DNA of 33,759 nt. It comes from Bacteroidota bacterium (GTDB lineage: Bacteria; Bacteroidota; Bacteroidia; B-17B0; Aurantibacillaceae). The notes beneath the pieces are model-generated. The model searched no databases, was not told where the DNA came from, and saw nothing but the letters and a program-made list of their open reading frames with translations. Made by a program: the position numbers and the translations under genes. Position 1 is the first letter of the stretch. Every line of letters begins with the position of its first letter. Positions 6,778 to 28,125 of this stretch are shown piece after piece. Location: positions 1-33,759 of the forward strand of contig JACDED010000040.1 in the NCBI GenBank assembly GCA_013816615.1, in the 5' to 3' direction.

Positions 6778-7545
6778 ATGAGCAAAATATCATCTAACAT
6801 CCGTTTTTTACGCCAGCTGAAAGGCTTATCACAAGAGCAACTGGCAGACGATCTTAAAGTAACACGTTCGCGTATTGGCGGCTATGAAGAAGCGCGTAAC
6901 GAACCACCAATAGATCTGTTGATCCGTTTATCGGAATATTTTCACATTGCTATTGATGCTTTGGTAAGAGGTGATCTTAAAAAAACAAACTTGGATGGTT
7001 TAATGAAGGTAGGAAAGAACCGTATCCTTTTTCCTATTTTATTAGATAGCGATGGTAATGATATGGTAGAGCTTATTCCTTTAAAAGCTTCTGCGGGATA
7101 TACACGCGGTTATTCCGATCCGGAGTATATTGAAAAATTACCGCAAATGAAATTGCCTTTTTTACCATCGGGCAAGCACCGCGCTTTTCCTATTAAAGGA
7201 GATAGTATGCCTCCTATAAGAGAAGGTTCTTTTGTAATTGCAAAATATTTAGAGCGTTTTGAAGAAGTAAAAATGGGGCAAACCTATATTATTGTTACCA
7301 AAGAAGACGGTTTATCTTACAAACGTATTATGGCTTTTAATAAAAAAGAAGCGGCTTACGAATTACATTCGGATAATAAATTATATGCGCCGTTTAAAGT
7401 AAAATCTAACGAAATTTTAGAGATCTGGGAATATACCTGTTGCATTAACATGAACCAGTATCAAAACGATGAACTTAATTTAGACAGCATTATGAATATG
7501 CTTAAAGGTTTAAAGGTAGAGATATCGGAAATTAAGAAGAAATAA
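6778..7545 (+). CDS. XRE helix-turn-helix regulator with S24 (LexA/CI-like) peptidase domain
   Basis: 255 residues. Residues 5-62 are an XRE helix-turn-helix (LRQLKGLSQEQLADDL, RSRIGGYEEARNEP). Residues about 98-225 are an S24 peptidase domain: candidate self-cleavage Ala106-Gly107 in KASAGYTRGY, catalytic Ser143 in KGDSMPP and Lys182 in LSYKRI. The catalytic pair is intact. Such LexA/CI-like proteins are common as single chromosomal regulators in Bacteroidota and need not respond to DNA damage. The last 35 residues form a charged, probably helical tail. It sits 27 nt upstream of the YidD-A-B cassette, which has its own -7 box, so control of the cassette is possible but not shown. Confidence 0.92.
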   Translation: MSKISSNIRFLRQLKGLSQEQLADDLKVTRSRIGGYEEARNEPPIDLLIRLSEYFHIAIDALVRGDLKKTNLDGLMKVGKNRILFPILLDSDGNDMVELIPLKASAGYTRGYSDPEYIEKLPQMKLPFLPSGKHRAFPIKGDSMPPIREGSFVIAKYLERFEEVKMGQTYIIVTKEDGLSYKRIMAFNKKEAAYELHSDNKLYAPFKVKSNEILEIWEYTCCINMNQYQNDELNLDSIMNMLKGLKVEISEIKKK

Positions 7546-7572: not shown

Positions 7573-7998
7573 ATGCATCGGTTTATTTTATTTTTATTAC
7601 TCTTATCTGCATCTGCCTCATATAGCCAGACCGAAAATAGCATTAACGAAAAAATGCTAAGTGTTTCTTTCGATCATTCTGAAAAACCTGAGAAACGTAA
7701 ATTACTTACTTTTAAAAAGAAAAGCTCTTATTTTAATCCGCTTAATTATTTAGGTGCAGGCGCCTTATTTGTGTATCAGAATATATTTTCAGAACAAATT
7801 CAGGCCAGCTGTACTTATGAGATCAGTTGCTCACAATACACAAAAATTTCCATTCAAAAATTCGGATTTTTTAAAGGCGTTTTAAAAGGCTTTAATCAAT
7901 TGTCGGAATGTGCGCCAACAGCCATTTATGAGCATCCACCGGTTTATGTAAATGGCGACCAACAAATAATTAATCATTTTGAAGAAACAGGTAAATAG
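7573..7998 (+). CDS. exported YidD-like protein (cassette copy 1)
   Basis: 141 residues. A clear Sec signal (MHRFILFLLLLSASASYSQ) is followed by a linker and then a YidD domain at about 65-115: FVYQNIFSEQIQASCTYEIS, CSQY, FGFFKGVLKGF and a last Cys in LSEC (Cys80, 86, 113), matching the family pattern of YQ...SPxxxxxCR(F/Y)xPxCSxY...GxxKG. YidD of Escherichia coli is a small inner-membrane-associated cytoplasmic protein that helps membrane-protein insertion. Here the signal peptide would place the domain in the periplasm, which is unlike the classical protein. It overlaps gene A by 20 nt. A paralogue lies at 17622-18086. Confidence 0.85.
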   Translation: MHRFILFLLLLSASASYSQTENSINEKMLSVSFDHSEKPEKRKLLTFKKKSSYFNPLNYLGAGALFVYQNIFSEQIQASCTYEISCSQYTKISIQKFGFFKGVLKGFNQLSECAPTAIYEHPPVYVNGDQQIINHFEETGK

Positions 7999-8734
7999 TT
8001 TTATTTTATTTTTTTGCGTTGTTTTTTCTTCTGCCCAGGTTAATGTTAAGTTTATTGATCACCTCTCAGCAAATAATCTTGCCAGGGAACATACAACTTA
8101 CTTAAATTCGTTACCGGAATCAGATTCTGTTTTTTATTTTAAAGCAAAATTTGCAGCAAAGTATGATCAGGGCGCTTTTATAATAAATAATTATGTTTTA
8201 AGTCAGGCTTTATGTAATGCCGATACTAATCTAAATAACAAGGCAAGCATTCACTTTTTAACAGCAGCTGATCAAAGAAATACGCAGGCCTGGTTTGGTA
8301 TACCGGGCGCATTTTCTGCCGGTAAAGAAAACAATTTTAATACTGTTTATAAAGCATCACTTAATCCTAATTTATTTTCCGAAGAAAATTTCCCTCTCGA
8401 ATTACAAAAGTCGTATTTAAAATACAAACGCAGTTATAATAAGAAACCTGTGTTGGCTGCTGTTTTCTCTACTATACTTCCCGGTTCAGGAAAATTATAT
8501 GCCGGTAAAACAAAAACATTTTTTCTTACGTTTCTTTTAAATGCAGCTTATGCCGTGCAAACAGTTGAAAGCGGTAAAAAGTTAGGTATTAAACATCCTT
8601 TAACGATCATAAATGCAACAGCGTTTACTGTTTTTTATCTATCAAATATTTATGGCAGCTACAGAGCCGTTATCGATCTTAGAAAAGAACGCAAAAAACA
8701 ATTTATAACAGATGCTACGAATTTTTATAATTAG
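7979..8734 (+). CDS. cassette protein A1: exported TPR-like protein with C-terminal PGxG membrane hairpin
   Basis: 251 residues from a TTG start that gives a complete signal (KKQVNSFILFFCVVFSSAQ). The middle is helical with TPR-like character. From about residue 155 a membrane-hairpin domain follows: STILPGSGKLYAGK, a hydrophobic stretch, then FTVFYLSNIYGSYRAV. This closely parallels protein A2 at 16762-17622 (STVVPGLGKFYAGK ... FTFFYVGNIFGSVFSV). The PGxGxxYxG start resembles TM2/DUF5683-type domains. It overlaps the YidD-like gene by 20 nt and gene B by 23 nt, so the three are translationally linked. No function is known to me. Confidence 0.8.
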   Translation: MKKQVNSFILFFCVVFSSAQVNVKFIDHLSANNLAREHTTYLNSLPESDSVFYFKAKFAAKYDQGAFIINNYVLSQALCNADTNLNNKASIHFLTAADQRNTQAWFGIPGAFSAGKENNFNTVYKASLNPNLFSEENFPLELQKSYLKYKRSYNKKPVLAAVFSTILPGSGKLYAGKTKTFFLTFLLNAAYAVQTVESGKKLGIKHPLTIINATAFTVFYLSNIYGSYRAVIDLRKERKKQFITDATNFYN

Positions 8735-9533
8735 TTTATTGTTATGTAACAGCACAATTGTTTTTAGCCAAAATGCTTTAAACGATAGCTTGTTATCGTA
8801 TGAGTATGCTTATTTTAAAAGTAATAATGATACAGTAAAGCAAATGCTACTTTTAAAAAAGATAGATCTTTATTTAAAACAAAACATAACGGATGTTAAT
8901 GTGCTGAATGAGGTTAACCGTGTTAATGTAAATGCCTTAACAGATAATACTGCCAAAGTGAATTTTTTATGGAATGCCACAGCTATTGCGTATTTAAATA
9001 ATAATACTGATCGTGCCCGCTTTTTTTTAGCGGAGTATTCAGAATTAAAAAAAGACACATCGGTTACTTTTAATTTATTGGCTATTCTTATAAATAAATA
9101 TGCAGATACCAGTGATGTAAACAAACGCATAGCTTATTTAGCAAATAAGGATACAGTGTTTAAAGATCTAAGTTGTTTTTTGGATATAATTAATTACAAC
9201 CGGAAGCATTTAAAATTTTATCTGATCTCTTCGGCTATTATTCCAGGTTCGGGAACAGCCATGAATGGTTATGTGTTTAAAGGCATTACTTCTTTGGCTT
9301 TAATGGCAGGCAGCGTTTATGGCATTATAAAAATGGTTGAGTATGGCTTATACATTAATGCAGTTTTATGGGGCACGGGCGTTAGTTTAAAATTTTATGC
9401 CGGTAATATAAAATTAACCCAGCAATCGTTTTATAAAGCAGAAGACAAGAAAAAAAATAAGCTCACAAATTCTTGTGAGCTTAAATTAAAAAATGTTCTT
9501 AATAGGTATCCGCTTACTTTAAAGGGGCTATAG
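8712..9533 (+). CDS. cassette protein B1: exported TPR-like protein with C-terminal PGxG hairpin
   Basis: 273 residues with a signal peptide (MLRIFIISLLLCNSTIVFSQ), a helical, TPR-like region (AIAYLNNNTDRARFFLAEY) and a C-terminal domain starting SSAIIPGSGTAMNGY with two hydrophobic segments and LKFYAGNIKL. It parallels protein B2 (STFFPGFGQCYAGN ... GKFYLGGIKRAE). The last 25 codons run through a hairpin that serves as terminator for the convergent gene on the other strand, and the 3' end overlaps that gene by 20 nt. Function unknown; likely works with the YidD-like and A proteins at the periplasmic face of the inner membrane. Confidence 0.78.
   Translation: MLRIFIISLLLCNSTIVFSQNALNDSLLSYEYAYFKSNNDTVKQMLLLKKIDLYLKQNITDVNVLNEVNRVNVNALTDNTAKVNFLWNATAIAYLNNNTDRARFFLAEYSELKKDTSVTFNLLAILINKYADTSDVNKRIAYLANKDTVFKDLSCFLDIINYNRKHLKFYLISSAIIPGSGTAMNGYVFKGITSLALMAGSVYGIIKMVEYGLYINAVLWGTGVSLKFYAGNIKLTQQSFYKAEDKKKNKLTNSCELKLKNVLNRYPLTLKGL
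9450..9483 (-). terminator. terminator of the 9514-11274 gene, inside the 3' end of gene B1
   Basis: TAAGCTCACAA (9458-9468) and TTGTGAGCTTA (9473-9483) form a perfect 11-bp stem with a 4-nt loop. On the minus strand it is followed by TTTTTTT, so it terminates the minus-strand transcript while lying inside plus-strand coding sequence. Confidence 0.75.
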
Positions 9534-11274
9534 TTCCAAAGTAGCCTGTACCTTTTCGTGAATTACCTGAAAGAAAAACAAAATAAAACACCGGAGGACA
9601 TAAGCATGATAACCACGTAAGAGGTTTTATTTTTGTTTTTACACAATCAGTATACATTTTATTATCATATACCTGTATGTTATCTGCGCTAATAAATTTT
9701 TTATCAGCCTTTTTTGCATTAACAGAATTTATTTGGTGCTCGGCTTTTTTATAATCACCTGTTTGTCCTGAAAACACAGCGTATTCAAATCTATCAGTTA
9801 ATTGTTTGCCTGATTTTGCGCCTTTTCTGTTTTTCTTTTTAGCATTTATTTGATAAGATGAACCATATACTACATAATAACTCGATTCTTTTCTCATTAC
9901 ATTGAGGTCATACACATTCCAACGTGAATAGGTAATTGAACGGTCAAGATTTTTTGCCCACAAAATATCACCACTTCCGCTTAATCTAAATGAGGTTACG
10001 TTACTTTTTGTGCAATAGTAATAAGTCTGACAAGTTCTAGAACCTCTGCTATCAGTGGTACAAACGGTTCTTGACCAGTTATTCATGATCGAACAAAATA
10101 ATAATATATCGTTACCGTCTTCAATTACTTCTTCAATTACATAATTGTCATCAAGACTTTCATCATCCGATGCTTTTGCTTTATCACTTTTAAATAAACC
10201 TCTTCCTTTTTTCTGATTTTCTTTATCAGCAGCGTATAATTGATCCAGGAATGGTTTATCGAAATAAGAAAATTTAGTGTCTTTAACCTGGAAGCTCTTA
10301 CTATCAAGGGTTATGTAAAAAATGCCATGTGAATCGCTTCCTTTTTCATCTTTATCAAGATCGCTGAAAAAGCCATATAATCTAACGCCATTTTTAGTGA
10401 TCAATGAAGAAAAGTTAAATGTATTCTTTTTAGGAAACTTTAAATGGTATTCTTTAAGAGAGCCGGTTTCCATAACAATTTGCATGATGTGAGGATAAAC
10501 AGAAGCTTCACCTTTTTTTAATTGTTTTTTCTCGTCACCGGTTATTTTTATCGATTCCTGAACGTATAAATTTCCATCATCAGCCAATTCGTAAGAGCAA
10601 GAAGAATATTCTGCCGAGCTAAAAAGGCCTTTACGTTTTTTTGTTACCATTATCGGTAAGGTAACTTGTTTAGAAGTAACAAAAGAAAAATCAGGGTTTA
10701 GTAATTTGTACTCAATTTTTAAATTCTCATTTTCTTTAGCCGAAAATTCTTTTGCAAGCAATATCTTATCATTAAGCGTTTGATTGTAAATTAAAATTAA
10801 CTTGTCAGTACCAAGAGCTTTTGAACCTGAGTTTATTTCATAAACCTTTTTAAGCTTGTTTATTTTTTTTAGTTTCGGGTCAAACGTTTCAACATAAAGT
10901 TCTAAAACATCCTTACGCTTATCAACGTTAGTCCAAAACACATAAATTAAATTATTAAGCGTTATTGTTTTATAATAATCATAGTCATCTTTATCTCCTT
11001 TGCCGTAACCTCTTAATGGGGCTTCGCCAACCCTTTTCATAGTAACCTTATCAAACGCTACTAATTTTATTTTTTTATTTTGTTTTTTTGGTAAAGAGGC
11101 GAGGTTACTGAATTTACCATAAATATAAGTGTTGTTACTACCGATAAATTGGTCAAAAAAGCCGTCTTGCTTGTTATCAAACGTGTATTGCTCGCTCCAT
11201 TTTACATCTATACTTTGCGCGCGTGTAATTAATGCAAATGCCACCATTAAAAATGGTAAAATAATTTTTTTCAT
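9514..11274 (-). CDS. secreted protein of unknown function
   Basis: 586 residues with a Sec signal (MKKIILPFLMVAFALITRAQ). The body is rich in beta-strand and Lys/Asp, reading like a long propeller or repeat protein, with strands such as YIYGKFSNLA, LIYVFWTNVD and YYVVYGSSYQ. An acidic stretch (DDESLDDNYVIEEVIEDG) lies near residue 375, and a Cys-containing loop TVCTTDSRGSRTCQTYYYC follows. The C terminus has a hydrophobic segment with paired Cys (LSCLCPPVFYFVFL). I do not recognise the family. It is the fourth gene in the minus-strand run below the protease and barrel genes, separated by 77 nt, and may have its own promoter (a TATCTTGG box upstream is weak). Confidence 0.7.
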   Translation of the reverse strand: MKKIILPFLMVAFALITRAQSIDVKWSEQYTFDNKQDGFFDQFIGSNNTYIYGKFSNLASLPKKQNKKIKLVAFDKVTMKRVGEAPLRGYGKGDKDDYDYYKTITLNNLIYVFWTNVDKRKDVLELYVETFDPKLKKINKLKKVYEINSGSKALGTDKLILIYNQTLNDKILLAKEFSAKENENLKIEYKLLNPDFSFVTSKQVTLPIMVTKKRKGLFSSAEYSSCSYELADDGNLYVQESIKITGDEKKQLKKGEASVYPHIMQIVMETGSLKEYHLKFPKKNTFNFSSLITKNGVRLYGFFSDLDKDEKGSDSHGIFYITLDSKSFQVKDTKFSYFDKPFLDQLYAADKENQKKGRGLFKSDKAKASDDESLDDNYVIEEVIEDGNDILLFCSIMNNWSRTVCTTDSRGSRTCQTYYYCTKSNVTSFRLSGSGDILWAKNLDRSITYSRWNVYDLNVMRKESSYYVVYGSSYQINAKKKNRKGAKSGKQLTDRFEYAVFSGQTGDYKKAEHQINSVNAKKADKKFISADNIQVYDNKMYTDCVKTKIKPLTWLSCLCPPVFYFVFLSGNSRKGTGYFGTIAPLK

Positions 11275-11351
11275 AAATAAAGATTTTTTTTAAAACGTTG
11301 CCAAGATAATGTTAAATCCTTTATTAGCAATAAAAAATAATCTAAATATAT

Positions 11352-12194
11352 TTAGAAACCAATACCAAAGGAATAGCCAATATTAAGCGATCCAAGGCTT
11401 GCCGAAGATCTATTACCATTGGAAATATAATAAGGATCTACAACGCCGTTTTGAATATTAGACAGGTCGTAACTTTTGGCAAAGGAACTATATGAGTTTA
11501 TTTTTACGCCAAGCCCCAGGTAAAAATCATGCACTGTTTTAATTTTTCCATGCGTAGCGAATGAATAACCAATACCACTATTGATCATGGTGCACTGAGA
11601 TCTAAACGTCCTGTCGCCGTAAACAAAAACACCCTTAACGGTAGAGGGCAAAAGATACGAGTAACTAAAATAACTAACTTTTAAAAAAGAGAATAATCCG
11701 CTAAAAGCAGTGCCATCGGCAGCATAAAACCCAAGCCAGTTAATGCCCTCGGAATAAGCTTTATATCCTATAGATGCAAATACACCACCTTTAATGTATT
11801 TACCACTAGAAAGTGCATCATAAACAGTAAGATAGTTTTTAGAAGTTGACCAGCCACGAAGATCAGCAAAATTTTCTTCAATAAAATTTCCAAAAGTATT
11901 GTAACCTAATCCAAATGTGAGGTTTGAGCCATTGTAAATATTTATTTCGTTTTCCAACACAAGATTGCCTCTTAAAAGATCAAAAGGTAAAAATTTTAAA
12001 CTGTATACTATATTCGGAGAGTTATTAAGAAATTTATTTGATTTTTGATTATTGTTTTGCCCAAATGCGCCACCATTTGGTGTGTAAGAATTATCAAGAT
12101 TGTTTAAACGGCCTGAAGAATCTTTTTGCGAATACGAAAAACAACCTATTGTTATAAAAAACAAAAGTATTAATTGCTTTTTTAGCGCAGCCAT
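11352..12194 (-). CDS. outer-membrane beta-barrel-like protein 1
   Basis: 280 residues. It has a signal peptide (LKKQLILLFFITIGCFSYSQ) and then an extended low-complexity segment (PNGGAFGQNNNQKSNKFLNN) leading to alternating hydrophobic/polar strands, ending in an aromatic residue (NIGYSFGIGF), as outer-membrane barrels recognised by BAM do. It is paralogous to the next gene upstream: both carry YTPN near the N terminus, a KFxPxxxLR motif and the IGYSFGIGF / MGYSFGFGF end. The two genes are 6 nt apart and likely arose by tandem duplication. The function is unknown. Confidence 0.7.
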   Translation of the reverse strand: MAALKKQLILLFFITIGCFSYSQKDSSGRLNNLDNSYTPNGGAFGQNNNQKSNKFLNNSPNIVYSLKFLPFDLLRGNLVLENEINIYNGSNLTFGLGYNTFGNFIEENFADLRGWSTSKNYLTVYDALSSGKYIKGGVFASIGYKAYSEGINWLGFYAADGTAFSGLFSFLKVSYFSYSYLLPSTVKGVFVYGDRTFRSQCTMINSGIGYSFATHGKIKTVHDFYLGLGVKINSYSSFAKSYDLSNIQNGVVDPYYISNGNRSSASLGSLNIGYSFGIGF

Positions 12195-12200
12195 TTTTTT

Positions 12201-13013
12201 TTAAAAACCAAAACCAAATGAATAACCCATATTAAATGCCGGAACAATGCGTGCGCTTAACGTTGGCGAGCCGGCAGTATAATAAACCTGAGTAGCTCCA
12301 AAGGCGCCGGTAGCCTCAATTCTGTTAAACCGCGTAACCTCAAACATCTTAATGCCTACATTCATGTATAGATCGTGTATTAAATTATTTTTTGGTCCGG
12401 TAACAAATGTGTGCCCAAAGCCAAAATAAACAGCATTCATTTTAAAAGTGCATTTTCGCGAACCTCTAACTTCATAATCAAACACTTTTGTATTCAATAA
12501 ATAATCTGTGCGTTCAAAAGCATAACCAAATTCAACATATCCTTCGTCAAAAGATTTGCCTGAATAGTAAACTCTTAAACTTGGTGAGACCAATGGAGAG
12601 CTTGCATCGTAAACAGAATACGATGACGCATCGCTGGGAGAAAGTACATTGTTATTATATGTTTCAAAAACTGAAAAATATGCCATTTGCATAACATCTT
12701 TTCCGAAGGCCTTACCAATAGAAAGGTTTGCAGCTATGCCATTGTAGATCTCTCTTTGATATGAAAAGGATGCTTTTAATCTTAAAATTGAAGTGGGAGA
12801 AAATTTAATGGCATTTTTTATTTCTACCGGGCTGGATGAACTTACCTGTGGATTATTTTTGTTGAGGTTATTAAATATGGAGCTTTCGTTTGGTGTATAT
12901 TTTTTATCGTACTCGTTATCCTTATCGTTAACAATAACCTGGCTGTATAATGCAGAAAAACTAAAAGCAGCTATAATAAATAATATGTACCTGGTAGGAT
13001 TGACTTTTTTCAT
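12201..13013 (-). CDS. outer-membrane beta-barrel-like protein 2
   Basis: 270 residues, paralogue of the adjacent barrel gene. It shows a signal peptide (ILFIIAAFSFSALYSQ), a polar linker with YTPNESS, the shared KFSPTSILRLKASF strand and a terminal MGYSFGFGF. Its ATG overlaps a TGA of the out-of-frame protease tail (ATGA at 13010-13013), which argues that it was originally translationally coupled to the protease. I infer an outer-membrane location; partner or cargo unknown. Confidence 0.7.
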   Translation of the reverse strand: MKKVNPTRYILFIIAAFSFSALYSQVIVNDKDNEYDKKYTPNESSIFNNLNKNNPQVSSSSPVEIKNAIKFSPTSILRLKASFSYQREIYNGIAANLSIGKAFGKDVMQMAYFSVFETYNNNVLSPSDASSYSVYDASSPLVSPSLRVYYSGKSFDEGYVEFGYAFERTDYLLNTKVFDYEVRGSRKCTFKMNAVYFGFGHTFVTGPKNNLIHDLYMNVGIKMFEVTRFNRIEATGAFGATQVYYTAGSPTLSARIVPAFNMGYSFGFGF

Positions 13014-13130
13014 TTTACTTTTATCAAAACAACATAATTAGTAAGTACTTTAATTTTTTCTTCTAAAGAAAGAGCGTTTATAGAATTATCTGCAGGCATA
13101 TCTATTTTATCTGAAAGTAATTCAATAAGA
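13010..13130 (-). pseudogene. out-of-frame C-terminal tail of the upstream protease
   Basis: Just past the A6 tract (plus-strand T6 at 13131-13136) the frame different from the protease reads NLIELLSDKIDMPADN and on for about 40 codons to a TGA that overlaps the next ATG as ATGA. NLIELL after SYAIK is the expected continuation of trypsin-like proteases of this type. This is the natural 3' end of the protease gene, now cut off by a 1-nt net frameshift. Confidence 0.7.
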
Positions 13131-14645
13131 TTTTTTATATAATTTAATGGCGTAAGAAACGTTATCGGTATTTTTAATACTTGCATTTATTACGCCAATT
13201 AACTGGCCATTTTCATTAAATACCGGGCCGCCGCTATTACCCGGTTGAACTGGTATTGTTGATTGAAAAGAATTAATAGCACCATCGTAACCGGTTTTTG
13301 CACTTATTTTTCCATCAGTAAATTTTGCATCTTTGCCCATGCCGGTTAAAGCATGCGGATAACCAATTGTAAATACTGTTCCGCCAACATCTAATTGTCC
13401 ATTTTCTTTAAATGAGTATTTAAGAGGGGGTAAGTTGGAAAATTGATCATCCTTGATCTTTAAAATTGCAAGATCATTTTCTTTATCCTGTGTTACAATT
13501 TCGGCTTTATAATTTTTTTTAACTGCGTTCTGAGTTATTTCAACTACAAATTTATTTGAATTTTCGATCACATGATAATTAGTAATAATGTATCCGTTAG
13601 AGCCAAAAAATATACCCGACCCGGTTCCTTTCACATCCTGATCGGTAGCGTTTGTAATGCTTTTAGCGCCGGAAACACCAATGGATTTTACAACTAGCTT
13701 TTCTATTTTTAATTTTGTATTGCCGCCTAATACAAAGCCCACGTTATTGCCAAATAATTTATGGTTGCTGCTATTGTATTGTATTTCGCCATTAATTGAG
13801 AAATAAGTTTTATCACCACTGCATAAAATTTTAATTACATTATTATCTAAAGGATTAATGGATGAGGCGAACATAGCATCTGCTTCGGTTGATTTTACAC
13901 CCTCATACATTGAACCTATGAAAATATTTTTTTTGCTAATTGCAAAATAATTATAGTTCTGCCAATCTTTAAAGCCATATATAATTCCAACTCTATCATT
14001 CTCTTTTATATCTTTAATATTTATGATCGCTTCAATGGTGTATTCGTCAGATTCTATCGTATGATTAATGTACCTCGACGTGCCTTCTTTTGAAGTTGAA
14101 ATGATCTCAAATACACCAGCCGAAATACTTGCAGAGCTTTTATCACTTAAATAAAGATCCCACTCGTTTAAATTATTATCAAAATTCTCTTCAAATAATT
14201 TACTTTTTGTGCCGTCTTCATTATATTCCACAAAAGAATTTTGAGCTACTTTGCCATTTTGAAACTCTACTTCTTTCCAGATCTTTCCCGATTCATAATA
14301 ATATTTGGAAATACCTGTTTCTTCTCCTTTTGCATTAAAGCTTCTTATCTGTTTTACATTCCCGTTTTTGTAATACCAGGTGCATAAACCGGTATAAAGA
14401 TTTTTATTTTCATCACCTGCCGAAGGTGATTGTATACGTCCTTCAAAAAATAATTTGTTATTAACGGCATAATAGCTTCTAAAATAACCGGCAGTATCAC
14501 TTTCCTGTCTAAAAGAATAAGACATACTTTCAATCGAAGCTTTGCCCGATTTGTCAAAATAATTTTTTGGATGTGTGTTTTGTGAAAAAGCGTTTACTAC
14601 AGCTATAAAAAATAATAGCATAAACAGAAAAAAATTTCTTTTCAT
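13122..14645 (-). CDS. secreted HtrA-like serine protease with MORN-type repeats and LamG-like domain, frameshifted at 3' end
   Basis: 507 residues as read. A Sec signal (FFLFMLLFFIAVVNAFSQ) precedes MORN_2/YwqK-type repeats at about 60-145 (GLCTWYYKNGNVKQIRSF, GISKYYYESGKIWKEVEF), a LamG/concanavalin-like domain at about 150-322, and a trypsin-like domain at about 338-500 with His358 (ITNYHVI), Asp391 (ENDLAIL) and Ser471 (PGNSGGP). The triad is complete, so it is probably an active periplasmic or surface protease. No PDZ domain follows. The frame ends early in YAIKLYKKSY; a one-base change at the adjacent A6 tract would extend it by about 40 residues to 13010. The LamG-like domain resembles the one in the OmpA chimera at the left edge. 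Confidence 0.85.
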   Translation of the reverse strand: MKRNFFLFMLLFFIAVVNAFSQNTHPKNYFDKSGKASIESMSYSFRQESDTAGYFRSYYAVNNKLFFEGRIQSPSAGDENKNLYTGLCTWYYKNGNVKQIRSFNAKGEETGISKYYYESGKIWKEVEFQNGKVAQNSFVEYNEDGTKSKLFEENFDNNLNEWDLYLSDKSSASISAGVFEIISTSKEGTSRYINHTIESDEYTIEAIINIKDIKENDRVGIIYGFKDWQNYNYFAISKKNIFIGSMYEGVKSTEADAMFASSINPLDNNVIKILCSGDKTYFSINGEIQYNSSNHKLFGNNVGFVLGGNTKLKIEKLVVKSIGVSGAKSITNATDQDVKGTGSGIFFGSNGYIITNYHVIENSNKFVVEITQNAVKKNYKAEIVTQDKENDLAILKIKDDQFSNLPPLKYSFKENGQLDVGGTVFTIGYPHALTGMGKDAKFTDGKISAKTGYDGAINSFQSTIPVQPGNSGGPVFNENGQLIGVINASIKNTDNVSYAIKLYKKSY

Positions 14646-14759
14646 TGCAATGGAATTTCTTGATTTTTAGGAATACGCAAGTATAGGAAATTTTGATGAG
14701 TTATAGTAAGATATATTTAGCCTTTGTAGGTGGTAAATGCAAATGTTTGATTTAAAAGG

Positions 14760-14781
14760 TCATACCCGTTATTGGGTATTT
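14760..14781. promoter_or_regulatory. fourth, looser copy of the AAATACC-N8-GGTATTT palindrome
   Basis: Reads TCATACC-CGTTATTG-GGTATTT, sharing the ten central ATACC/GGTAT positions and the 8-nt spacer with the three sites in the imelysin locus. No -7 box sits at the 20-nt spacing in either direction, so its role is less certain. Confidence 0.35.
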
Positions 14782-14837
14782 CTTGATAAAAAAGGAAAAA
14801 CTATCGTTTAAAAAAGCCAATATATTTTTACGATGTA

Positions 14838-14845
14838 TATATTTG
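14838..14845 (+). promoter_or_regulatory. -7 box (TATATTTG) of the lipoprotein gene
   Basis: An exact TAnnTTTG match, 89 nt before the ATG at 14935, giving a leader of roughly 80 nt. Confidence 0.4.
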
Positions 14846-14934
14846 CGCTGTATATAACCACTCTTATATATTTAAACTAAAAATTAACCCTTTAATTAAC
14901 AAGCGGTTGGGTGGAATCGCGCAAAAACAAAAAC

Positions 14935-15390
14935 ATGAAAAAATTATTATCAATTGTAGCACTTGCTGCCGGTATTTTTTTAACAAGCTGTACGAATATC
15001 AACAAAAGTATGCGTGAGCCAAACACAAGATTAAATCTTGAGAAAAAAGATTTTACTTTATCTGATCAGGTAACAGGTGAAGCAACATCTACAAAGATCA
15101 TTGGAATTGATTTTAAACGTTTATTTTTAAAAGAAACGGGCACTCATGTTAATGATAATGCTTCATCGGTTTTACCTTTCAGCCTTGCTTCAATTCCGGT
15201 ACTTGGAGGTATTATAGTTGACGCTACTGCGGGTTATGCATTACATGATATGATGCAAAAAAATCCTGGTTTCGATGTGGTTTTTTACCCGCAATACGAA
15301 ACTACAGTTAAACGCCCTATTGGTCTTGGTTTTATTTACAAGGTTACTACTGTTAAGGCAACTGCAAGATTGGGTAAATTGAATAAATAA
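14935..15390 (+). CDS. small lipoprotein of unknown function
   Basis: 151 residues from the ATG at 14935 (an upstream in-frame GTG at 14911 would spoil the signal). MKKLLSIVALAAGIFLTSC is a lipoprotein signal with lipobox LTSC, so the mature protein begins at Cys19. The rest has a polar strand-rich part, a Gly/Ala-rich hydrophobic stretch (SIPVLGGIIVDATAGYALHD) and a C-terminal strand pair (FDVVFYPQYET, GLGFIYKVTTVKATARLG). Similar small lipoproteins occur in Bacteroidota beside TM2 proteins, but I know no function. It lies 64 nt upstream of the exported TM2 gene on the same strand, so the two may act together. Confidence 0.75.
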   Translation: MKKLLSIVALAAGIFLTSCTNINKSMREPNTRLNLEKKDFTLSDQVTGEATSTKIIGIDFKRLFLKETGTHVNDNASSVLPFSLASIPVLGGIIVDATAGYALHDMMQKNPGFDVVFYPQYETTVKRPIGLGFIYKVTTVKATARLGKLNK

Positions 15391-15454
15391 TATTTGTTTT
15401 TTTGATTAAAATGGGTATTTTTAGCCCCATAACTATTAAAACCCAACACAAACT

Positions 15455-15874
15455 ATGAAAAAATTAACATTAGTATTAGGTTTAGCTTTAGGGATCAGCT
15501 TTGGTGCCCAAGCTAACAAGTACAAAATGGATGAGATTCAATTAACTCAAACATTTGAAAACAGCCAGGAAGTAACATTTAACGAAATGTATGCTGCAGA
15601 TTTTAATACTGCAGATGTTAACAACCTAAACCTTAGCAGTAAAGATGGTTCTAAAACACGTGGCGGTTATTTATTACGTTCATTCTTTTGTGGAGCGTTT
15701 GCTATTCACCGTTACTACATGGGAACTGGTAAAAAATACATGTGGGCTTTATATTTCTGCGTTCCTGTAGCCGGTGGTGTTGCAGCTTGCGTAGATTTCT
15801 GGGGCGCTGTATTCAGCAAAGATTTCTATAAGAAATTTGAGAATAATGATAAGTGGTTTGTTTGGTTAGACTAA
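15455..15874 (+). CDS. exported TM2-domain protein
   Basis: 139 residues: signal peptide (LVLGLALGISFGAQA), a polar linker of about 55 residues, and a C-terminal TM2 domain. The domain shows the family pattern of a short hydrophobic helix, a conserved HRYYMGTGKKYMW turn and a second helix ending in Asp (GGVAACVDFWGAVF). TM2 proteins are found in many bacteria and in animals with little known biochemistry. Its location next to the B2-A2-YidD cassette, whose A and B proteins also end in PGxG hairpins of TM2-like layout, suggests a shared process. A bidirectional terminator follows. A possible promoter is TTTG (15393-15396), 19 nt, then TATTTTTA (15416-15423). Confidence 0.85.
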   Translation: MKKLTLVLGLALGISFGAQANKYKMDEIQLTQTFENSQEVTFNEMYAADFNTADVNNLNLSSKDGSKTRGGYLLRSFFCGAFAIHRYYMGTGKKYMWALYFCVPVAGGVAACVDFWGAVFSKDFYKKFENNDKWFVWLD

Positions 15875-15892
15875 GCAATTGCATTTGATCTT

Positions 15893-15926
15893 AAAAAAAG
15901 CCGGTTAATTTTAACCGGCTTTTTTA
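15893..15926. terminator. bidirectional rho-independent terminator
   Basis: AGCCGGTTAA (15899-15908) pairs perfectly with TTAACCGGCT (15911-15920); A-run on the left and T-run on the right. It can end both the TM2 transcript (plus) and the long minus-strand operon finishing with gene B2. Confidence 0.88.
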
Positions 15927-16811
15927 GTTTATAAAATGTTGTTTTACCTGCTCTTTTAAAGATTGATTGTAGTTTTTTGAATGCAGATAATTATACTTCT
16001 CAGCTAAAAATTCTGCGCGCTTTATTCCTCCTAAATAAAATTTACCTATTAAGAGATTGCCAACAAATATAGATGTAAAATAGTACTGGTAAATTACGCC
16101 CGCCACCATCGCCCCCGCAATAACAGCAATGGCAAAGAACGAAGAAATACCCTCGGCATAATTGCCGGCATAACATTGGCCAAAACCAGGAAAAAAAGTA
16201 GATATTCTGCCTGCTTTTTCTACATTTTTTAACTTAGGAATGTTTTTGGTGCTATAAATAGAATCAATGACCCTTTTATTAAAATTAAATGCCTCTGAAT
16301 TATTTAAATTAAGACCGTTGTTTAGTTTACCTAATTTCTCTTTTGCCTTTGTCCACTTATACTGTTCATTTAAAACAAAAACATGAAGCATTAACGATTT
16401 AATTATATAGGAAGAATCTTTTATAAGATAATTTAATTGTTCTAAGAACGATTCTGCCTGTGTGAGATCGTTATTTAAATAACTCATTAAAGCACTTTGA
16501 TATTTAACTCTAAAAATAACCGAATCTGCTGCGCCTTCAATACCAATACTATTTAATTGGTTAATGCCGGCGGTATAATTATTGTATTGTTTATAGCAGT
16601 TTGCAGCAGAGAATTTAGCTTCATTTTTCATCGTTTCACTTTGAGAAAAAAAATCAAGCTTTTGATAAAATATAGAAGCCTCGTAATACTTTTTATTTAA
16701 AAGTAAGCTATCTGCAATGTGTTTTAACTGCAGTGTGTCGTTTACCGAGTAGGCACTAAGCTTACTTAAAAAAACGAACAATAGGAACGTGTATGCTTGC
16801 AAGCACTTCAT
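15924..16811 (-). CDS. cassette protein B2: exported TPR-like protein with C-terminal PGxG hairpin
   Basis: 295 residues. Signal peptide (YTFLLFVFLSKLSAYS), TPR-like helices (HIADSLLLNKKYYEASIFYQ, FSAANCYKQYNNYTAGINQL, ALMSYLNNDLTQAESFLEQL), then a membrane hairpin beginning STFFPGFGQCYAGNYAEG with two long hydrophobic segments and GKFYLGGIKRAEFLAEKY. It corresponds to B1 at 8712-9533. Its first 50 nt lie inside the end of gene A2 in another frame, so its signal peptide is encoded by overlapping sequence. It is the last gene before the bidirectional terminator. The likely topology is a periplasmic TPR part anchored by the hairpin. Function unknown. Confidence 0.8.
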   Translation of the reverse strand: MKCLQAYTFLLFVFLSKLSAYSVNDTLQLKHIADSLLLNKKYYEASIFYQKLDFFSQSETMKNEAKFSAANCYKQYNNYTAGINQLNSIGIEGAADSVIFRVKYQSALMSYLNNDLTQAESFLEQLNYLIKDSSYIIKSLMLHVFVLNEQYKWTKAKEKLGKLNNGLNLNNSEAFNFNKRVIDSIYSTKNIPKLKNVEKAGRISTFFPGFGQCYAGNYAEGISSFFAIAVIAGAMVAGVIYQYYFTSIFVGNLLIGKFYLGGIKRAEFLAEKYNYLHSKNYNQSLKEQVKQHFIN

Positions 16812-17622
16812 TATTTATTCTTCCGTTAACTGATCTTATTTGTTGTTTTACACTAAACACACTTCCAAAAATATTACCCACATAAAAAAAAGTAAATAAA
16901 GCACTGAAGGTTATAAATTGCGGACTCTTAAAATTATCTGTTCTGTAATACGATTCAAAGGCCATAGCGGCTAAAGCACCGTTTGCAGCAAAGGCAGCCA
17001 GGCCGGCGCCTTTTTTACCGGCATAAAACTTTCCTAAGCCCGGAACCACTGTAGATAAAAGCCCGGCCACAAGTGGCGATTTTTTCTTTACTTTTTGAGA
17101 ATACTGTTTTAGTTCCATTAATTTTTGTTGCTCATTGGAATATTTATAATCATCAAACAAAAAAGTTTTACTTACCGAATCAAAATCTTTATAATCCCTT
17201 AATAATAAATAATTACCGGCATTTACAATATTTAAAAGCGGTTTATACTTCAAAATAGTGTCTTCAGAAAAGGAAGATATACTTTGTAAAGCAATTGTGT
17301 ATTTTTTAGAATAAGAAAGATTGATGGATTCAAAAAAACGGGCACCGGTAAAAAAATTACTACTTACAGAAACTGCGTGAAAGTAATTAGCGGCAGAGTC
17401 GGTTTTTTTTAAAAGATAATAATTCATTCCTTTTAAATAGTTTACAGTATCAGCATTCGTAAGCTCGTTGGTATTATTTAATAAGAATAAAGCTTCGCGG
17501 TTTTTACCTGTTTCGGTTAAATGTTGTGTAAATAAAAAATCAGGGTTTTGTTTTTCCTGCGAAAAGCCTGTATGCGCGGTAATACAAAATAATAAAGAAA
17601 GCAATATTAAAATAAACTTCAT
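16762..17622 (-). CDS. cassette protein A2: exported TPR-like protein with C-terminal PGxG hairpin
   Basis: 286 residues: signal peptide (ILILLSLLFCITAHTGFSQ), TPR-like helices in residues about 30-190 (NREALFLLNN, VNYLKGMNYYLLKKTDSAAN), then a hairpin domain starting LLSTVVPGLGKFYAGKKGAG and ending FTFFYVGNIFGSVFSVKQQ. It matches A1 at 7979-8734 across the hairpin. The ATG shares one base with the TAA of the YidD-like gene (TAATG), typical of translational coupling. GLGK is not a Walker A site because no GK[ST] follows. Function unknown. Confidence 0.8.
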   Translation of the reverse strand: MKFILILLSLLFCITAHTGFSQEKQNPDFLFTQHLTETGKNREALFLLNNTNELTNADTVNYLKGMNYYLLKKTDSAANYFHAVSVSSNFFTGARFFESINLSYSKKYTIALQSISSFSEDTILKYKPLLNIVNAGNYLLLRDYKDFDSVSKTFLFDDYKYSNEQQKLMELKQYSQKVKKKSPLVAGLLSTVVPGLGKFYAGKKGAGLAAFAANGALAAMAFESYYRTDNFKSPQFITFSALFTFFYVGNIFGSVFSVKQQIRSVNGRINNEVLASIHVPIVRFFK

Positions 17623-18086
17623 TATTTGTTTTTGAATGTGTAGTCGTTGGGGTGATCATAAATTTTATGAGTTCTCGAATTAAAATCAACCCCTTCTATC
17701 ATATCAATGCCGGCAAGCTTTGTGCATCGGGTTAAACGATCGGCTGTTAATGGGATGCCCTTTAAAATACCGTAATTTTGAATGCACTGCTTACTAAAGT
17801 TACTGCAATTTACTTCGTAAGGACAAGCAGCACCTATTTGAACAGAAATTGTTTTTTGATAAACATACAATAGGCCGCCAAACGCAAGGGAAACCGGGTT
17901 ATACTTTACAAACGCATTTTTTCCGGCAAATAAATAAGTTACATGTCTTTTGTTTTCAAACGCCGGTTCAAAAGTTGTTTTTTCAAAAAGAAGATCGGTA
18001 TCTGTTTTTGTTTGAGAAAATAAAACAGAGTTGATCAGGCAAAACAGACCGATCCATATTTTATTTACCCGATACCACTTTTGCAT
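17622..18086 (-). CDS. exported YidD-like protein (cassette copy 2)
   Basis: 154 residues from the ATG at 18086; the in-frame TTG at 18107 is less likely. An N-terminal signal or anchor (IWIGLFCLINSVLFSQ) precedes a YidD domain at about 70-125: LLYVYQKTISVQIGAACPYE, CSNFSKQC, YGILKGIPLTADRLTRC. It is more complete than copy 1, including the final DRLTRC motif typical of exported Bacteroidota YidD-like proteins as I recall them. The start overlaps the LolA-like gene by 26 nt and the stop overlaps the A2 start. The signal peptide implies periplasmic exposure, unlike classical YidD. Confidence 0.85.
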   Translation of the reverse strand: MQKWYRVNKIWIGLFCLINSVLFSQTKTDTDLLFEKTTFEPAFENKRHVTYLFAGKNAFVKYNPVSLAFGGLLYVYQKTISVQIGAACPYEVNCSNFSKQCIQNYGILKGIPLTADRLTRCTKLAGIDMIEGVDFNSRTHKIYDHPNDYTFKNK

Positions 18087-18783
18087 TTGCAGGAATTTTA
18101 AAATCAAGGTAAGTTAAATTAACTTCGTTATTGATCTTTGGGTTGGAATAGACTTTAATGGTAACAGTTGAATCGTTTTTTTCTTTATAAGCTATCTCTG
18201 TGATCTTTAAAGGAATATTTACATTTCCTATTTTTTGATAAGATGAAAAAAATATTTTTCCTAATGGTTTATTTTTTGCGTCAATAAATTCAAGATAGAT
18301 CGGAAGGCTTTTTTCATGAGCCATTTCTATTTTTTGAATTGGCGAATTTAAACCCGGCTTCGGCACCCAATTGGTAATAAAAACGCCATCATCTACTTTA
18401 GTATCTTTAATTACATAACCAATTTTAGCAAAACCAAGATCATTATAATTTCCATTTAAAAAATACCAAAAGTAACTCGATTCGGATGAGGTTAATGCAG
18501 AACTTGATTGTAGTAATGTATTATCAAGCACGTCGTAATTTTTCATATCACCGTTAGCATTAACAATGGTAACATTTTCAAATGGCTTTGTTAAGTGGGT
18601 AGTAAGAACACCACCTTGCCTTTTAAAATAAACTTCGCCTTCAACCGTAATGTATTTTTTCTTTTCAAGTATCTTCGAAATAAAATTTAAGCTTAACGCA
18701 TCTGTATTAGTTAAACAGAAGGACGCGCTGCTTATGGCTATAAGCAATGGAATTGGCCATTTTAATATCAGCTGTTTAAGCAT
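18061..18783 (-). CDS. exported LolA-like (outer-membrane lipoprotein-sorting fold) protein
   Basis: 240 residues with a signal peptide (PIPLLIAISSASFCLT). The mature part alternates strands as in LolA/LolB-type half-barrels: YITVEGEVYFKRQGG, LTTHLTKPFENVTIV, YLEFIDAKNKPLGKIFFSSY, LPLKITEI-like GNVNIPLKITEIAYKEK, and a final NEVNLTYLDFKIP strand. The fold call rests on this pattern and on its place between a DedA gene and a YidD-like gene; it could be another periplasmic lipid- or lipoprotein-binding protein. The start overlaps the DedA stop by 8 nt. If right, it would bind a lipid or lipoprotein in the periplasm. Confidence 0.55.
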   Translation of the reverse strand: MLKQLILKWPIPLLIAISSASFCLTNTDALSLNFISKILEKKKYITVEGEVYFKRQGGVLTTHLTKPFENVTIVNANGDMKNYDVLDNTLLQSSSALTSSESSYFWYFLNGNYNDLGFAKIGYVIKDTKVDDGVFITNWVPKPGLNSPIQKIEMAHEKSLPIYLEFIDAKNKPLGKIFFSSYQKIGNVNIPLKITEIAYKEKNDSTVTIKVYSNPKINNEVNLTYLDFKIPANAKVVSGK

Positions 18784-22095: not shown

Positions 22096-24312
22096 TTAAA
22101 GCTTAACCTGGATGGTAAAGTAAGCATTTATAGGGTCTGCGGGCAATATTCCGGGCCCGGGATACCCTTCTGCCCTGCGTGTAAAATAACTGCTGTTGGC
22201 CACATTATTTACCCCTGCGCTAAATCCTAAAAAACGCCAGCTGTAATTAGCCGAAATATCCATTATTGAATAAGCTGGAATAATGCCATAAATAGCCGAT
22301 GAAGTTGACAAGGAATTATCGGCATCTGAAAATTGTTGTGCCGTGTAAGAGTATTGGTAAGTAAGGCTGAATTTTTTGTATGCATATGTTACACCTGTTC
22401 TAAAAATAACATCGGGCACGTATTCTACTTTTTTATTATTGTAAGCGCTTTGCTGACTGCTTACATAAATAGCGTTGATGTATGACATGTTTACAAATGT
22501 GGAGAGCTTATGTTTTGAAGTTTTTTTAATAAGCTTTATCCAGTCAATTTCACCAAAGGCTTCAATGCCTGTGTTTTTGCTATCGCTGATGTTAGTGCGG
22601 AAACGAATAATGTTGTAAGTTGTGGAGTCTACTCTTAAAACACTTCCAATTCTGTTTTGATAGTTTAAGAAAAACCCGCTTACATCAAAATATAAAATAT
22701 TTTTTACAACGCCTCTAAATCCCCCGTCAGCAGTAAATCCGGTCTCATCTTTCAAATTAGGATCTACCTGGAAGTTTGGATTTAAAACACGCATATCATT
22801 AAAATTAATGGAGCGGTAATTCTGAGAAAAATTCGCATACAACTCAACCGATTTATTTAATTTTAATTGTGTGCCAATACCTGCCAACATAAAACTGCGG
22901 TTGTTACTGCGGTTATCGGCAATTTTCATATCCAATAAAACATTTCCGGCAAGATCTTTATTTAGTAAACGGTAATAACCATCAGAGCTCGTAACAATGT
23001 TTTCTAATCTTACACCGGGTGTTACACTCCATTTTCTTGTGAGCTGAAAAATATTTTCAATAAATAAAGCGTAGTTAGATGAAGGAAAAATATAAGAAGA
23101 GTTCTCTAAATCATCAGGATTTAAAAATTTAAAATGTGGCTTATCTGTTTTATTGGCATCGCCTTGCTTTCGGTTGGTATTACCTTTGTAAATACGCGCA
23201 CCAATTAAAAAATGGCTATTGTTGTTGAACAATATGTAACGCTGTAAAAAGCGTAATTCACCTCCGTAATTGTTGTAGCTATCACTCAATAAATTACGGT
23301 AAGTTGCGGTATCATCGATTCTGTCTATTCTTCCTAAGTTACCTAATGCATCACGACCAGCATTTAATCCAAAAAATAAAAAATTAAACCTTCCTTTATC
23401 AGAAACTTTATAGTCGGCACTTACCGAAAATAGATTCCAGTTTACTTTAAACCAATTTCTGTAACGGTTAACTAATGTTGGATCTTTTTCAAATTGTTTA
23501 TCGGTTAAACCTCCGGGTTGTTGTGCGAGATAGGAAAGAAAAGTGTACTCGCCTTTAATAAAAAAACGATCGTTGAATTGATATTTTAAGCTTGCAAATG
23601 CTGTGTGGCTGTGCAATTGCGAGCGTTCACGCCAGCCGCTATATTGTTTGTATTGGTAAAAGGTATTGTAGGAGAATTTTTTTACAGTACCTGAAAGTTG
23701 ATTGAAAGAATTTACAAAACCAAATGAGCCACCCGTTTGCCGAAATTTTGCGGCTATCTTTTTATTTGTTGGCGCTTCAGTAAATTTATAATTGATCATG
23801 CCGCCAAATTGCGTTCCAAATTGTAAACCTGCTGCTCCGCGTAAGATCTCAATTCGCTCAATGGCCTCAGTTGGTGGGGTATAATAACTTTCAGGATAAC
23901 CCAATGCATCTGCAGAAATATCGTAACCATTTTGTCGCGTATTAAAATTTGAGATCCGGTTAGGGTTTAAGCCACGGCCACCAATACCAACGGTAGCGCC
24001 AGAACCATCATTCTCAAAAATATTAATGCCCGCAATTTTTGAAAATATTTGTCGACTGTTATTTGCTGCGAGATTTGCATTCAGATCTTGCAAATAAATT
24101 GCTTCTGTTTTTTTTCCGGCATAAATAGTTGTGCCTTCTACATTATTTAAGCGCGAGATGCCGAATGTATTATCTTTTTCGACAACAATTTCTACTTCTT
24201 TTAATTCAATGTCTTTATTTTTTTTCTTTATAGAATCAGTTTTAAGCGAATCGTTTTGAGAAAAAACAAAACAGTTTATGAATAAAAATATGTAAAGTAA
24301 AAGTAAGCGCAT
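22096..24312 (-). CDS. TonB-dependent outer-membrane receptor, FecA-like
   Basis: 738 residues. Signal peptide (LLLLYIFLFINCFVFSQ), a possible TonB-box region (ELKEVEIVVEKD), a plug domain at about 60-170 with LQDLNANLAANNSRQIFSKI, VGIGGRGLNPNR and IERIEILRGAAGLQFG, then a barrel ending TIQVKL. The plug motif and gene neighbours fit ferric-siderophore or ferric-citrate type uptake. It is the last gene of the transcript starting with an imelysin lipoprotein and HTTM gene, 4 nt after the latter. The exact ligand cannot be told, and no carboxypeptidase-like extension precedes the plug. Confidence 0.92.
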   Translation of the reverse strand: MRLLLLYIFLFINCFVFSQNDSLKTDSIKKKNKDIELKEVEIVVEKDNTFGISRLNNVEGTTIYAGKKTEAIYLQDLNANLAANNSRQIFSKIAGINIFENDGSGATVGIGGRGLNPNRISNFNTRQNGYDISADALGYPESYYTPPTEAIERIEILRGAAGLQFGTQFGGMINYKFTEAPTNKKIAAKFRQTGGSFGFVNSFNQLSGTVKKFSYNTFYQYKQYSGWRERSQLHSHTAFASLKYQFNDRFFIKGEYTFLSYLAQQPGGLTDKQFEKDPTLVNRYRNWFKVNWNLFSVSADYKVSDKGRFNFLFFGLNAGRDALGNLGRIDRIDDTATYRNLLSDSYNNYGGELRFLQRYILFNNNSHFLIGARIYKGNTNRKQGDANKTDKPHFKFLNPDDLENSSYIFPSSNYALFIENIFQLTRKWSVTPGVRLENIVTSSDGYYRLLNKDLAGNVLLDMKIADNRSNNRSFMLAGIGTQLKLNKSVELYANFSQNYRSINFNDMRVLNPNFQVDPNLKDETGFTADGGFRGVVKNILYFDVSGFFLNYQNRIGSVLRVDSTTYNIIRFRTNISDSKNTGIEAFGEIDWIKLIKKTSKHKLSTFVNMSYINAIYVSSQQSAYNNKKVEYVPDVIFRTGVTYAYKKFSLTYQYSYTAQQFSDADNSLSTSSAIYGIIPAYSIMDISANYSWRFLGFSAGVNNVANSSYFTRRAEGYPGPGILPADPINAYFTIQVKL

Positions 24313-24316
24313 GAAA

Positions 24317-25663
24317 TCAATATTTTTTTACCCAGTTTTTGTTTTGAAAAAATGAATTGCTTTGAATACTAAGATCTACCTGTGGATCAATGAACTCGCG
24401 AGAGCCACGTCCGTTAAGGGTTACATAGCTTTGAGCGCGAATGATGGGATCTTTAAAGCCTTGTTTTATATATTCAGCCTTTAAAAATTTAGCATAATCT
24501 ATCATCATGTCGGGTTGAGTGGCCATCATTTTTTCCTGCATGTAGGTTAAATATGTTTTATTGTCTATTTCAATTTCACCGTTGGTTGTTCTGTCGTGCA
24601 CATAAAAAAAAGCGGTGCCGGCTTTCTCCATTAGCATTACGCGCCATGAGAAACGATAGCCTTGTTCGGTCCAGTATAAATTACCGGGATACATCAAATA
24701 ACGAAACGGGAGTATTAATTGAATAAGAAAGTGAAGCGTTAAAAGATAAACAAATGCTTTGATGGGTAAAGGCTTTGGTGAAAATGTTATTTGGCTATCG
24801 TTCAAAGGACGTTTAAATATTTTTTTGATCGTTTGAATTATTTTAATATGAAAACTCTCTGTAAAAAAAATTGTGGTAAGACATATCATAATGTATGGGA
24901 ACATACCAATATTAAAAAATAAAGAAGTAGCCAGGTGAAAAACGATCACTAAAAAATAAGTCGGCTTTATAAAACGCGGAATGAACAACAGGAAAGGAAT
25001 AAAAAGATCGTAAGCGCAGCCAAACCAGCTAAAAACATAAGCTACCCATTCTTTTGTCAATAATGATCCTATCCATGGCATCTCGCTATGGGCTGGAAGC
25101 CAGATCTTTAAAGGTTGTGCATGAAACAGCCAATCTGAATTTAGTTTTGCCAGGCCCGCGAAAAAATAAACAATAAATACCTGGAATTTAAGAATGAGAA
25201 TAAAATAGTTTGGCGCATAAGTGGCAGCTGTTTTTTTATTAAGAGATACATCAATTGAAAAATAGCGTTGTGCGGGTAAAAAAATTATAAGAAAGCTAAT
25301 AATGCTAACAAAATAATAATGGTTAAGATAATTGGTTTTATCTATCAGTTCGATATAGGTAAATGCCAGGAAAAAGAAAATGGTAGAGATCCTGTATAAA
25401 AAGCCCAAGGCGATAAATAGCGCGGCAACTGCAAGTGCAATAAATAAAACATACATTCCGGTTTCACCAAAAGGTTTTACCCATTCAAAACCAAAATAAG
25501 GAAAGAATAATTTTGGTTTAATGTACATATCATACACCCAGCCTTTAGCAATAAAGCGTAACACAGAGGCAAGCATTAAAAAGCCAAAGGCCATTCTAAA
25601 AATGGCCAAGGGAGCAAGGTGTACTGGTTTTAAAAAATATGATCTGATGTGGTTAATCACCAT
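24317..25663 (-). CDS. HTTM-domain (vitamin K-dependent gamma-carboxylase-like) membrane protein
   Basis: About 448 residues from the ATG at 25663, overlapping the preceding imelysin gene by 11 nt; a longer form from TTG at 25687 is less likely. Several transmembrane helices with the HTTM pattern: PLAIFRMAFGFLMLAS, LNHYYFVSIISFLIIFLPA, then VYFFAGLAKLNSDWLFHAQP, which aligns in type with the region around the active-site Lys of vertebrate gamma-glutamyl carboxylase. A soluble tail (about 340-448) follows. Bacterial HTTM proteins are mostly uncharacterised; in Bacteroidota they recur beside imelysin genes, so a role in metal uptake or lipoprotein modification is suspected. Confidence 0.85.
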   Translation of the reverse strand: MVINHIRSYFLKPVHLAPLAIFRMAFGFLMLASVLRFIAKGWVYDMYIKPKLFFPYFGFEWVKPFGETGMYVLFIALAVAALFIALGFLYRISTIFFFLAFTYIELIDKTNYLNHYYFVSIISFLIIFLPAQRYFSIDVSLNKKTAATYAPNYFILILKFQVFIVYFFAGLAKLNSDWLFHAQPLKIWLPAHSEMPWIGSLLTKEWVAYVFSWFGCAYDLFIPFLLFIPRFIKPTYFLVIVFHLATSLFFNIGMFPYIMICLTTIFFTESFHIKIIQTIKKIFKRPLNDSQITFSPKPLPIKAFVYLLTLHFLIQLILPFRYLMYPGNLYWTEQGYRFSWRVMLMEKAGTAFFYVHDRTTNGEIEIDNKTYLTYMQEKMMATQPDMMIDYAKFLKAEYIKQGFKDPIIRAQSYVTLNGRGSREFIDPQVDLSIQSNSFFQNKNWVKKY

Positions 25664-26780: not shown

Positions 26781-26796
26781 GAATTGAGGTAGATGG

Positions 26797-26846: not shown

Positions 26847-26892
26847 CCTCATCAAAATCAAGTGGTTGTCAATTATTTAACAAATGATAATA

Positions 26893-26925: not shown

Positions 26926-26944
26926 ATTTAATAAAGGGTTGCTA

Positions 26945-28096: not shown

Positions 28097-28125
28097 ATTA
28101 ATTTCTTTGATTTTAATTTGTAGTG

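Follow-up and report, generated by a model that had tools for sequence, protein, structure and literature searches.

Ordinary YidD is a short, nearly universal cytoplasmic protein that carries no signal peptide and is located at the inner leaflet. The LolA fold, which is shared by RseB and MucB, binds hydrophobic groups, LolA itself shielding acyl chains, and tetratricopeptide repeats (TPRs) bind peptides. In E. coli, YidD has been linked to membrane insertion (Yu et al. 2011, as cited in PMC8082313). In Bacteroidota, F. johnsoniae encodes LolA1-3 and LolB1-2, with LolA2/LolB2 situated inside the flexirubin operon, and specialised LolA/LolB pairs have been proposed for the phylum (PMC11885536), while P. 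gingivalis LolA3 shows very weak LolB binding and is devoid of both hallmark residues, i.e., the LolA arginine and the LolB leucine (PMC13103446). YidD goes unmentioned in both publications (PMC11885536 and PMC13103446). The stretch analysed here, henceforth called the window, comprises 33,759 nucleotides of a Bacteroidota bacterium (Aurantibacillaceae; contig JACDED010000040.1 of assembly GCA_013816615.1, positions 1 to 33,759) and harbours two gene cassettes in opposite orientation, in which an exported YidD (Y) is followed by two TPR-like hairpin proteins (A and B), and of which the second additionally starts with a LolA-fold protein (L) and faces a small TM2 protein (T). That the cassette is a conserved functional unit is near certain, and very strong evidence shows the unit to be real. 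Its function is supported by circumstantial evidence, and hence the interpretation, according to which the window holds two lineages of a cassette for the delivery of exported membrane proteins, is offered as quite possible, if somewhat short of probable. Each part can be assigned to a known domain family as a remote member, and the assembly is not a variant of any described system found; open-licence papers searched for YidD together with Bacteroidetes or with signal peptide and periplasm, for DUF5683, and for TM2 contained no description of an exported YidD or of an L-Y-A-B operon.

Architecture and conservation of the cassettes

Cassette 1 is encoded on the forward strand and consists of Y1 (7573-7998; Pfam YidD 44.7 bits, cut-off 27), the exported TPR-like protein A1 (7979-8734; TTG start, 20-nt overlap with Y1, hairpin PGSGKLYAGK), and its paralogue B1 (8712-9533; 23-nt overlap with A1, PGSG hairpin). 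Cassette 2 is encoded on the reverse strand and begins with L (18061-18783), an exported protein of predicted LolA/LolB fold whose gene overlaps the start of Y2 (17622-18086; YidD domain at 49.6 bits, signal peptide MQKWYRVNKIWIGLFCLINSVLFSQ), followed by A2 (16762-17622; 1-nt overlap with Y2), which has a signal peptide, a TPR-like domain, and a C-terminal TM2/DUF5683-like hairpin (PGLGKFYAGK), and by its paralogue B2 (15924-16811; 50-nt overlap with A2), which has the same layout and the motif PGFGQCYAG. In comparisons run with composition correction switched off, the two copies were homologous for Y (29% identity, E-value 5e-19), A (26%, 1e-15), and B (22%, 7e-12), and weak mutual homology was detected between A and B. 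Coordinates, YidD scores, and copy homology thus confirm an earlier note on this DNA, which had described two YidD-A-B cassettes of the same order with overlapping starts and stops; its inventory was incomplete, as L, T (15455-15874), and a third, ordinary YidD of 75 aa were omitted.

The term “duplicated”, which that note applied to the cassettes, is misleading. Copy 1 was placed in the same nine-member clade in the trees of Y, A, and B (support 0.999, 1.0, and 1.0, respectively) with copy 2 outside, and consequently the window is considered to contain two ancient cassette lineages. A recent tandem duplication was rejected on the same grounds, the copies belonging to separate old clades in all three trees. 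The trees were congruent, Y, A, and B having diverged together. Two complete, diverged L-Y-A-B units lying side by side in convergent or divergent orientation, as in the window, were also observed at three other loci (L123, L143, and L148).

A scan of species genomes returned 339 relatives of A, and 80 loci were kept for neighbourhood counts. According to their titles, all but a few of these belong to Bacteroidota groups (Runella, Flectobacillus, Fibrisoma, Arcicella, Ancylomarina, Marinifilum, Flavobacterium, Chitinophagaceae, Bacteroidales, and others); one metagenome bin titled Williamsia is probably mislabelled. The gene order was L-Y-A-B at 70 loci, Y-A-B at seven, and L-(Y-A fusion)-B at one; one locus (L129) has the L-Y-A-B gene set, but its Y and A frames overlap, and one other is cut by a contig end. 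Median start-stop spacing was -4 nt for both L-Y and Y-A, and A and B always overlapped, by at least 50 nt when the longest open reading frames were considered. In the genus and in four more families of the class, N-terminally extended second YidDs were followed by A and B in the loci read; an exception was L033 (genome G024), where a dissimilar 82-aa YidD match could not be confirmed as a cassette and no A or B was found. In a family of another class of the same phylum (f33), A was matched in 56 of the 57 genomes, in most of which a second match immediately adjoined the first, and Y preceded A and B in the eight loci read.

Co-occurrence was assessed in 129 genomes drawn evenly from the class and in a phylum sample of 138 genomes. 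As the earlier note had anticipated for exported YidD and its partners, Y and A were found together in 33 of the class genomes and one without the other in four (Y only in 2, A only in 2), with neither in 92 (Fisher p 6e-26, to be taken as indicative only because the sampled genomes are related). L was detected in 21 class genomes, all of which (21/21) also had Y and A, and was always located directly beside Y; in the phylum sample it was present in 3 of 138 genomes, all A-positive. It could be argued that the Ys are ordinary paralogous YidDs without dedicated partners, adjacent to A and B by chance or through shared genome history, given that YidD is nearly universal and its core motif is kept. 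This is extremely unlikely, as it is contradicted by the co-occurrence of Y and A in the class genomes, and likewise at odds with gene fusions, congruent trees, close overlaps, and the fact that the genes adjoin one another in dozens of families.

Natural fusions were identified at L098 (6099-7301; Y joined to a TPR-hairpin part, 400 aa, in one lineage) and at L191 (5530-6768; Y-A, 412 aa, its Y being without the third core cysteine). At L143 (2993-4807), B is fused to a TPR-like protein whose kin is a separate gene beside the cassette in 17 loci and which is possibly a further cassette component. Taken together, L-Y-A-B (copy 2) and Y-A-B (copy 1) are operons of closely overlapping genes; they are conserved, and their members occur in the same genomes and have diverged in step. 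Of the functional three-component unit postulated earlier, the unit therefore stands on operon conservation, co-occurrence, fusions, and congruent trees, but the number of components does not, since the copy-2 type is L-Y-A-B, usually with T in addition. An A-like match with two in-frame stops, for which no exported Y was found in the genome, was located on contig C16 of G034 (198403-198762) and is perhaps a decayed cassette.

The exported YidD and its partners

Both Ys of the window exceed the two curated YidD cut-offs (PF01809, see above; TIGR00278 scores of 49 and 60.3, cut-off 40) and retain all three cysteines of the core as well as the DRLxRC region, with C88, C94, S95, G106, G110, D116, R117, R120, and C121 (Y2 numbering) conserved in at least 96%. 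Y differs from YidD in having a signal peptide and a linker of about 60 residues before the core, in being without a PWGGHGYDPVP-type tail, and in adjoining L, A, and B while existing besides the ordinary YidD of the genome, a 75-aa protein encoded on another contig (N-terminus MLKKIAIGFVKFYQYAIRPLL, no signal peptide). A strong N-terminal hydrophobic stretch was present in 85 of 90 exported Ys and was followed by Q in 84 of 90; the YidD core started near residue 88, versus about 24 in ordinary YidDs. Because 11 of 29 ordinary YidDs also showed a moderate stretch by a simple hydrophobicity measure, core position and the Q motif are the better discriminators. With signal-peptide-like N-termini and a displaced core in about 85 of 90 members, Y departs from the short cytoplasmic form, and the export signals that the earlier note had read into the YidDs are borne out as a genuine family trait. 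All in all, the cassette members carry signals of the Sec/signal-peptidase I type. Second or long YidD frames at L095, L089, L099, and similar loci were discarded as resembling ordinary YidDs or spurious long frames.

L was modelled with AlphaFold2 at a predicted local distance difference test score (pLDDT) of 92.5, and the best Foldseek match of the model was LolA (2w7q, E-value 1e-11). VIA Z-scores were 16.1 for DUF1329 (4z48), 15.9 for P. gingivalis LolB, 15.4 for P. gingivalis LolA3, 12-13 for several LolAs, and about 9-10 for RseB and MucB; L is therefore predicted to have the LolA/LolB fold. The closest described counterparts are the LolA/LolB lipoprotein carriers, in particular the Bacteroidota LolA3 (9tp6) and LolB (9tpm), with which L shares export and a predicted fold at Z 15-16, and like LolA3 it has neither the LolA arginine nor the LolB leucine: R was found at position 55 in only 5 of 51 sequences, no R is conserved in the β2-β3 loop that holds the LolA arginine, and the exposed leucine of LolB has no counterpart, the loop of L reading P-x-E with no conserved L. 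L differs from LolA and LolB further in being tied to Y-A-B and in scoring below the Pfam LolA_like cut-off (PF17131, 19.5 bits versus 30), as did 25 of 51 of its relatives. A lipobox-like motif was present in 3 of 76 L sequences.

The predicted fold admits two further explanations. L could be a carrier of lipids or lipid-anchored proteins bound for the outer membrane, with Y-A-B as the acceptor, as in LolA-LolB or the proposed flexirubin pair LolA2-LolB2, and the specialised pairs proposed for Bacteroidota (PMC11885536) would be in line with this. Such a route is nevertheless unlikely, as no lipid-synthesis gene was frequent beside the cassette, the LolA arginine and LolB leucine are missing from L, and lipoboxes are very rare among the members. 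A lipid or pigment cluster was rejected for a related reason, no enzyme being frequent among the cassette neighbours. Alternatively, L might sense envelope stress in the manner of RseB and MucB, whose match to its model was given above, and the signal would be relayed by Y-A-B; this is very unlikely, considering that no sigma or anti-sigma gene was among the recurrent neighbours and that A and B have no obvious cytoplasmic domain for a relay.

For A and B, the TPR-like character and the PGxG hairpins named in the earlier note fared differently: the hairpins were confirmed, but TPR matches remained below the cut-off in the window proteins, as in A orthologues, and became clear in orthologues only (TPR_2 5e-10), with B orthologues of L034 and L035 at 39.2 and 33.8 bits (cut-off 27). 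Scores of A and B against DUF5683 and TM2 were 13-19 bits and hence under the cut-offs of 26.7 and 27.9, respectively. A, B, and T share GxGxHRxYxG / PGxGxxYxG hairpins with TM2 (PF05154) and DUF5683 (PF18935), from which A and B differ by these low scores and by an added signal peptide and TPR domain, and T by an added signal peptide and a conserved C-terminal aromatic motif.

Candidate clients and proposed function

In an unbiased neighbour count, no family adjoined the cassette more often than T, which was present at 65 of 80 loci, in most cases either convergent after B or directly upstream of L. Its members are small exported TM2 proteins in which a signal peptide and a YxxDDxxIExxF-like segment are combined with the TM2 helices and an aromatic tail (consensus NPKFFMW); 73 of 80 have a W among their final six residues. 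T of the window (15455-15874, forward strand) is a small, exported, TM2-like protein that ends in NNDKWFVWLD and is convergent to B2. It scored 19.6 bits against Pfam TM2, relatives reaching 40.6 and 48.5 bits (cut-off 27.9). Close homologues (E-value below 1e-26) occurred in 8 of the 129 class genomes, all with L, Y, and A. The number of T copies per cassette was 2-6 at L121, L133, and L139; at L139, six T-family TM2 genes surround a single L-Y-A-B cassette. Between the convergent ends of B2 and T, a perfect inverted repeat with a T tract (15894-15925) was read from the sequence and is probably the terminator shared by both genes; sigma-70 and terminator scans yielded scores no better than those of shuffled sequences. 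Beside cassette 1 lies P586 (9514-11274, reverse strand), an exported protein of 586 aa that belongs to no known family and whose C-terminus contains a hydrophobic segment (residues 552-570); a Pfam search with P586 returned no match. It adjoins or lies near type-1 Y-A-B in L039, L045, L046, L047, L048, and L049, and in G014 (L047) it is sandwiched by two copy-1 type cassettes.

In the delivery model, the cassette products would act in the periplasm, where L would shield the hydrophobic segment of an exported client, analogous to LolA with acyl chains, and hand it to an assembly of A and B. The TPR domains of the latter would grip the client while their hairpins sit in a membrane, and Y on the membrane surface would aid insertion, as proposed for cytoplasmic YidD at the opposite face of the inner membrane. 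Delivery could be to the outer membrane or to the inner membrane at its periplasmic face. Based on adjacency, variable copy number, and its own hairpin, T is the leading candidate and, as an exported TM2 hairpin protein with a conserved aromatic C-terminus, would most likely be the client of cassette 2; that of cassette 1 may be P586. The proposed logic of a soluble LolA-fold carrier and a membrane acceptor resembles the Lol sorting system, from which the cassette differs by having no ABC transporter genes and almost no lipoboxes, with YidD and TPR-TM2 partners instead. In its most specific version, L-Y-A-B would be an insertase that places alpha-helical hairpin proteins in the outer membrane once they have passed Sec, the LolA-fold chaperone ferrying aromatic-tailed TM2 proteins across the periplasm for insertion by exported YidD and its TPR-TM2 partners; so precise an assignment is speculative and unlikely to be correct. 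The earlier note had envisaged the assembly or delivery of outer-membrane proteins; no support was found for beta-barrel assembly, and delivery of helical TM2-type proteins would fit the neighbourhood better.

Several observations weigh against delivery or against T as its cargo. Looser TM2 relatives with a T-like tail are widespread in cassette-free genomes, which indicates that TM2 proteins as a class are independent of the cassette, and a T-like TM2 paralogue is encoded elsewhere in this genome. T and B2 of the window, being convergent with a probable shared terminator, do not form one transcript. No adjacent L or T was found at copy-1 type cassettes or at the Y-A-B loci read in f33. The hallmark residues of LolA and LolB are missing from L, as described above, and a fold search with the predicted model of Y matched no solved fold, which is not proof of a new fold. 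A, B, and T could instead form a resident envelope complex, e.g., a scaffold or channel, in which T would be a subunit and Y and L would be accessory; TM2-like helices in all three, the single T copy at most loci, and Y-A fusions suggestive of a stable complex are consistent with this. Such a complex is conceivable yet rather unlikely, as T varies from 0 to 6 copies per cassette and is often oppositely oriented, and cassette 1 has none.

If delivery of exported membrane proteins by the cassette is true, it would represent a phylum-wide envelope machine whose parts are known only from other roles, in that its YidD would sit on the unaccustomed side of the membrane and its LolA fold would be linked to protein partners. 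Two questions would become testable, namely the role of the YidD fold and how helical proteins exported by Sec are placed in the envelope of Bacteroidota, as the operon is compact, adjoins a candidate client gene, and, being absent from many relatives, is probably dispensable.

Other genes of the window

A regulator with a helix-turn-helix (HTH) and an S24 peptidase-like domain (6778-7545, forward strand) is located directly upstream of cassette 1; it was also found beside this cassette in L039, L045, L048, and L049 and persists in L041 and L044, where no cassette 1 was seen. Between the two cassettes, an exported protein that combines MORN_2 repeats with a trypsin-like protease domain (13122-14645, reverse strand) is adjoined by two paralogous exported proteins (11352-13013), a block that is conserved in L039 and, in part, in L045 and L049. 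None of the nine proteins tested matched the PADLOC models of anti-phage defence, and an interpretation as a defence system was dropped for this reason. At 22096-30841 (reverse strand), a TonB-dependent receptor, an HTTM/vitamin K-dependent gamma-carboxylase-like protein, two imelysin peptidases, a DUF4856 protein, and a di-haem oxidoreductase are encoded in a row.

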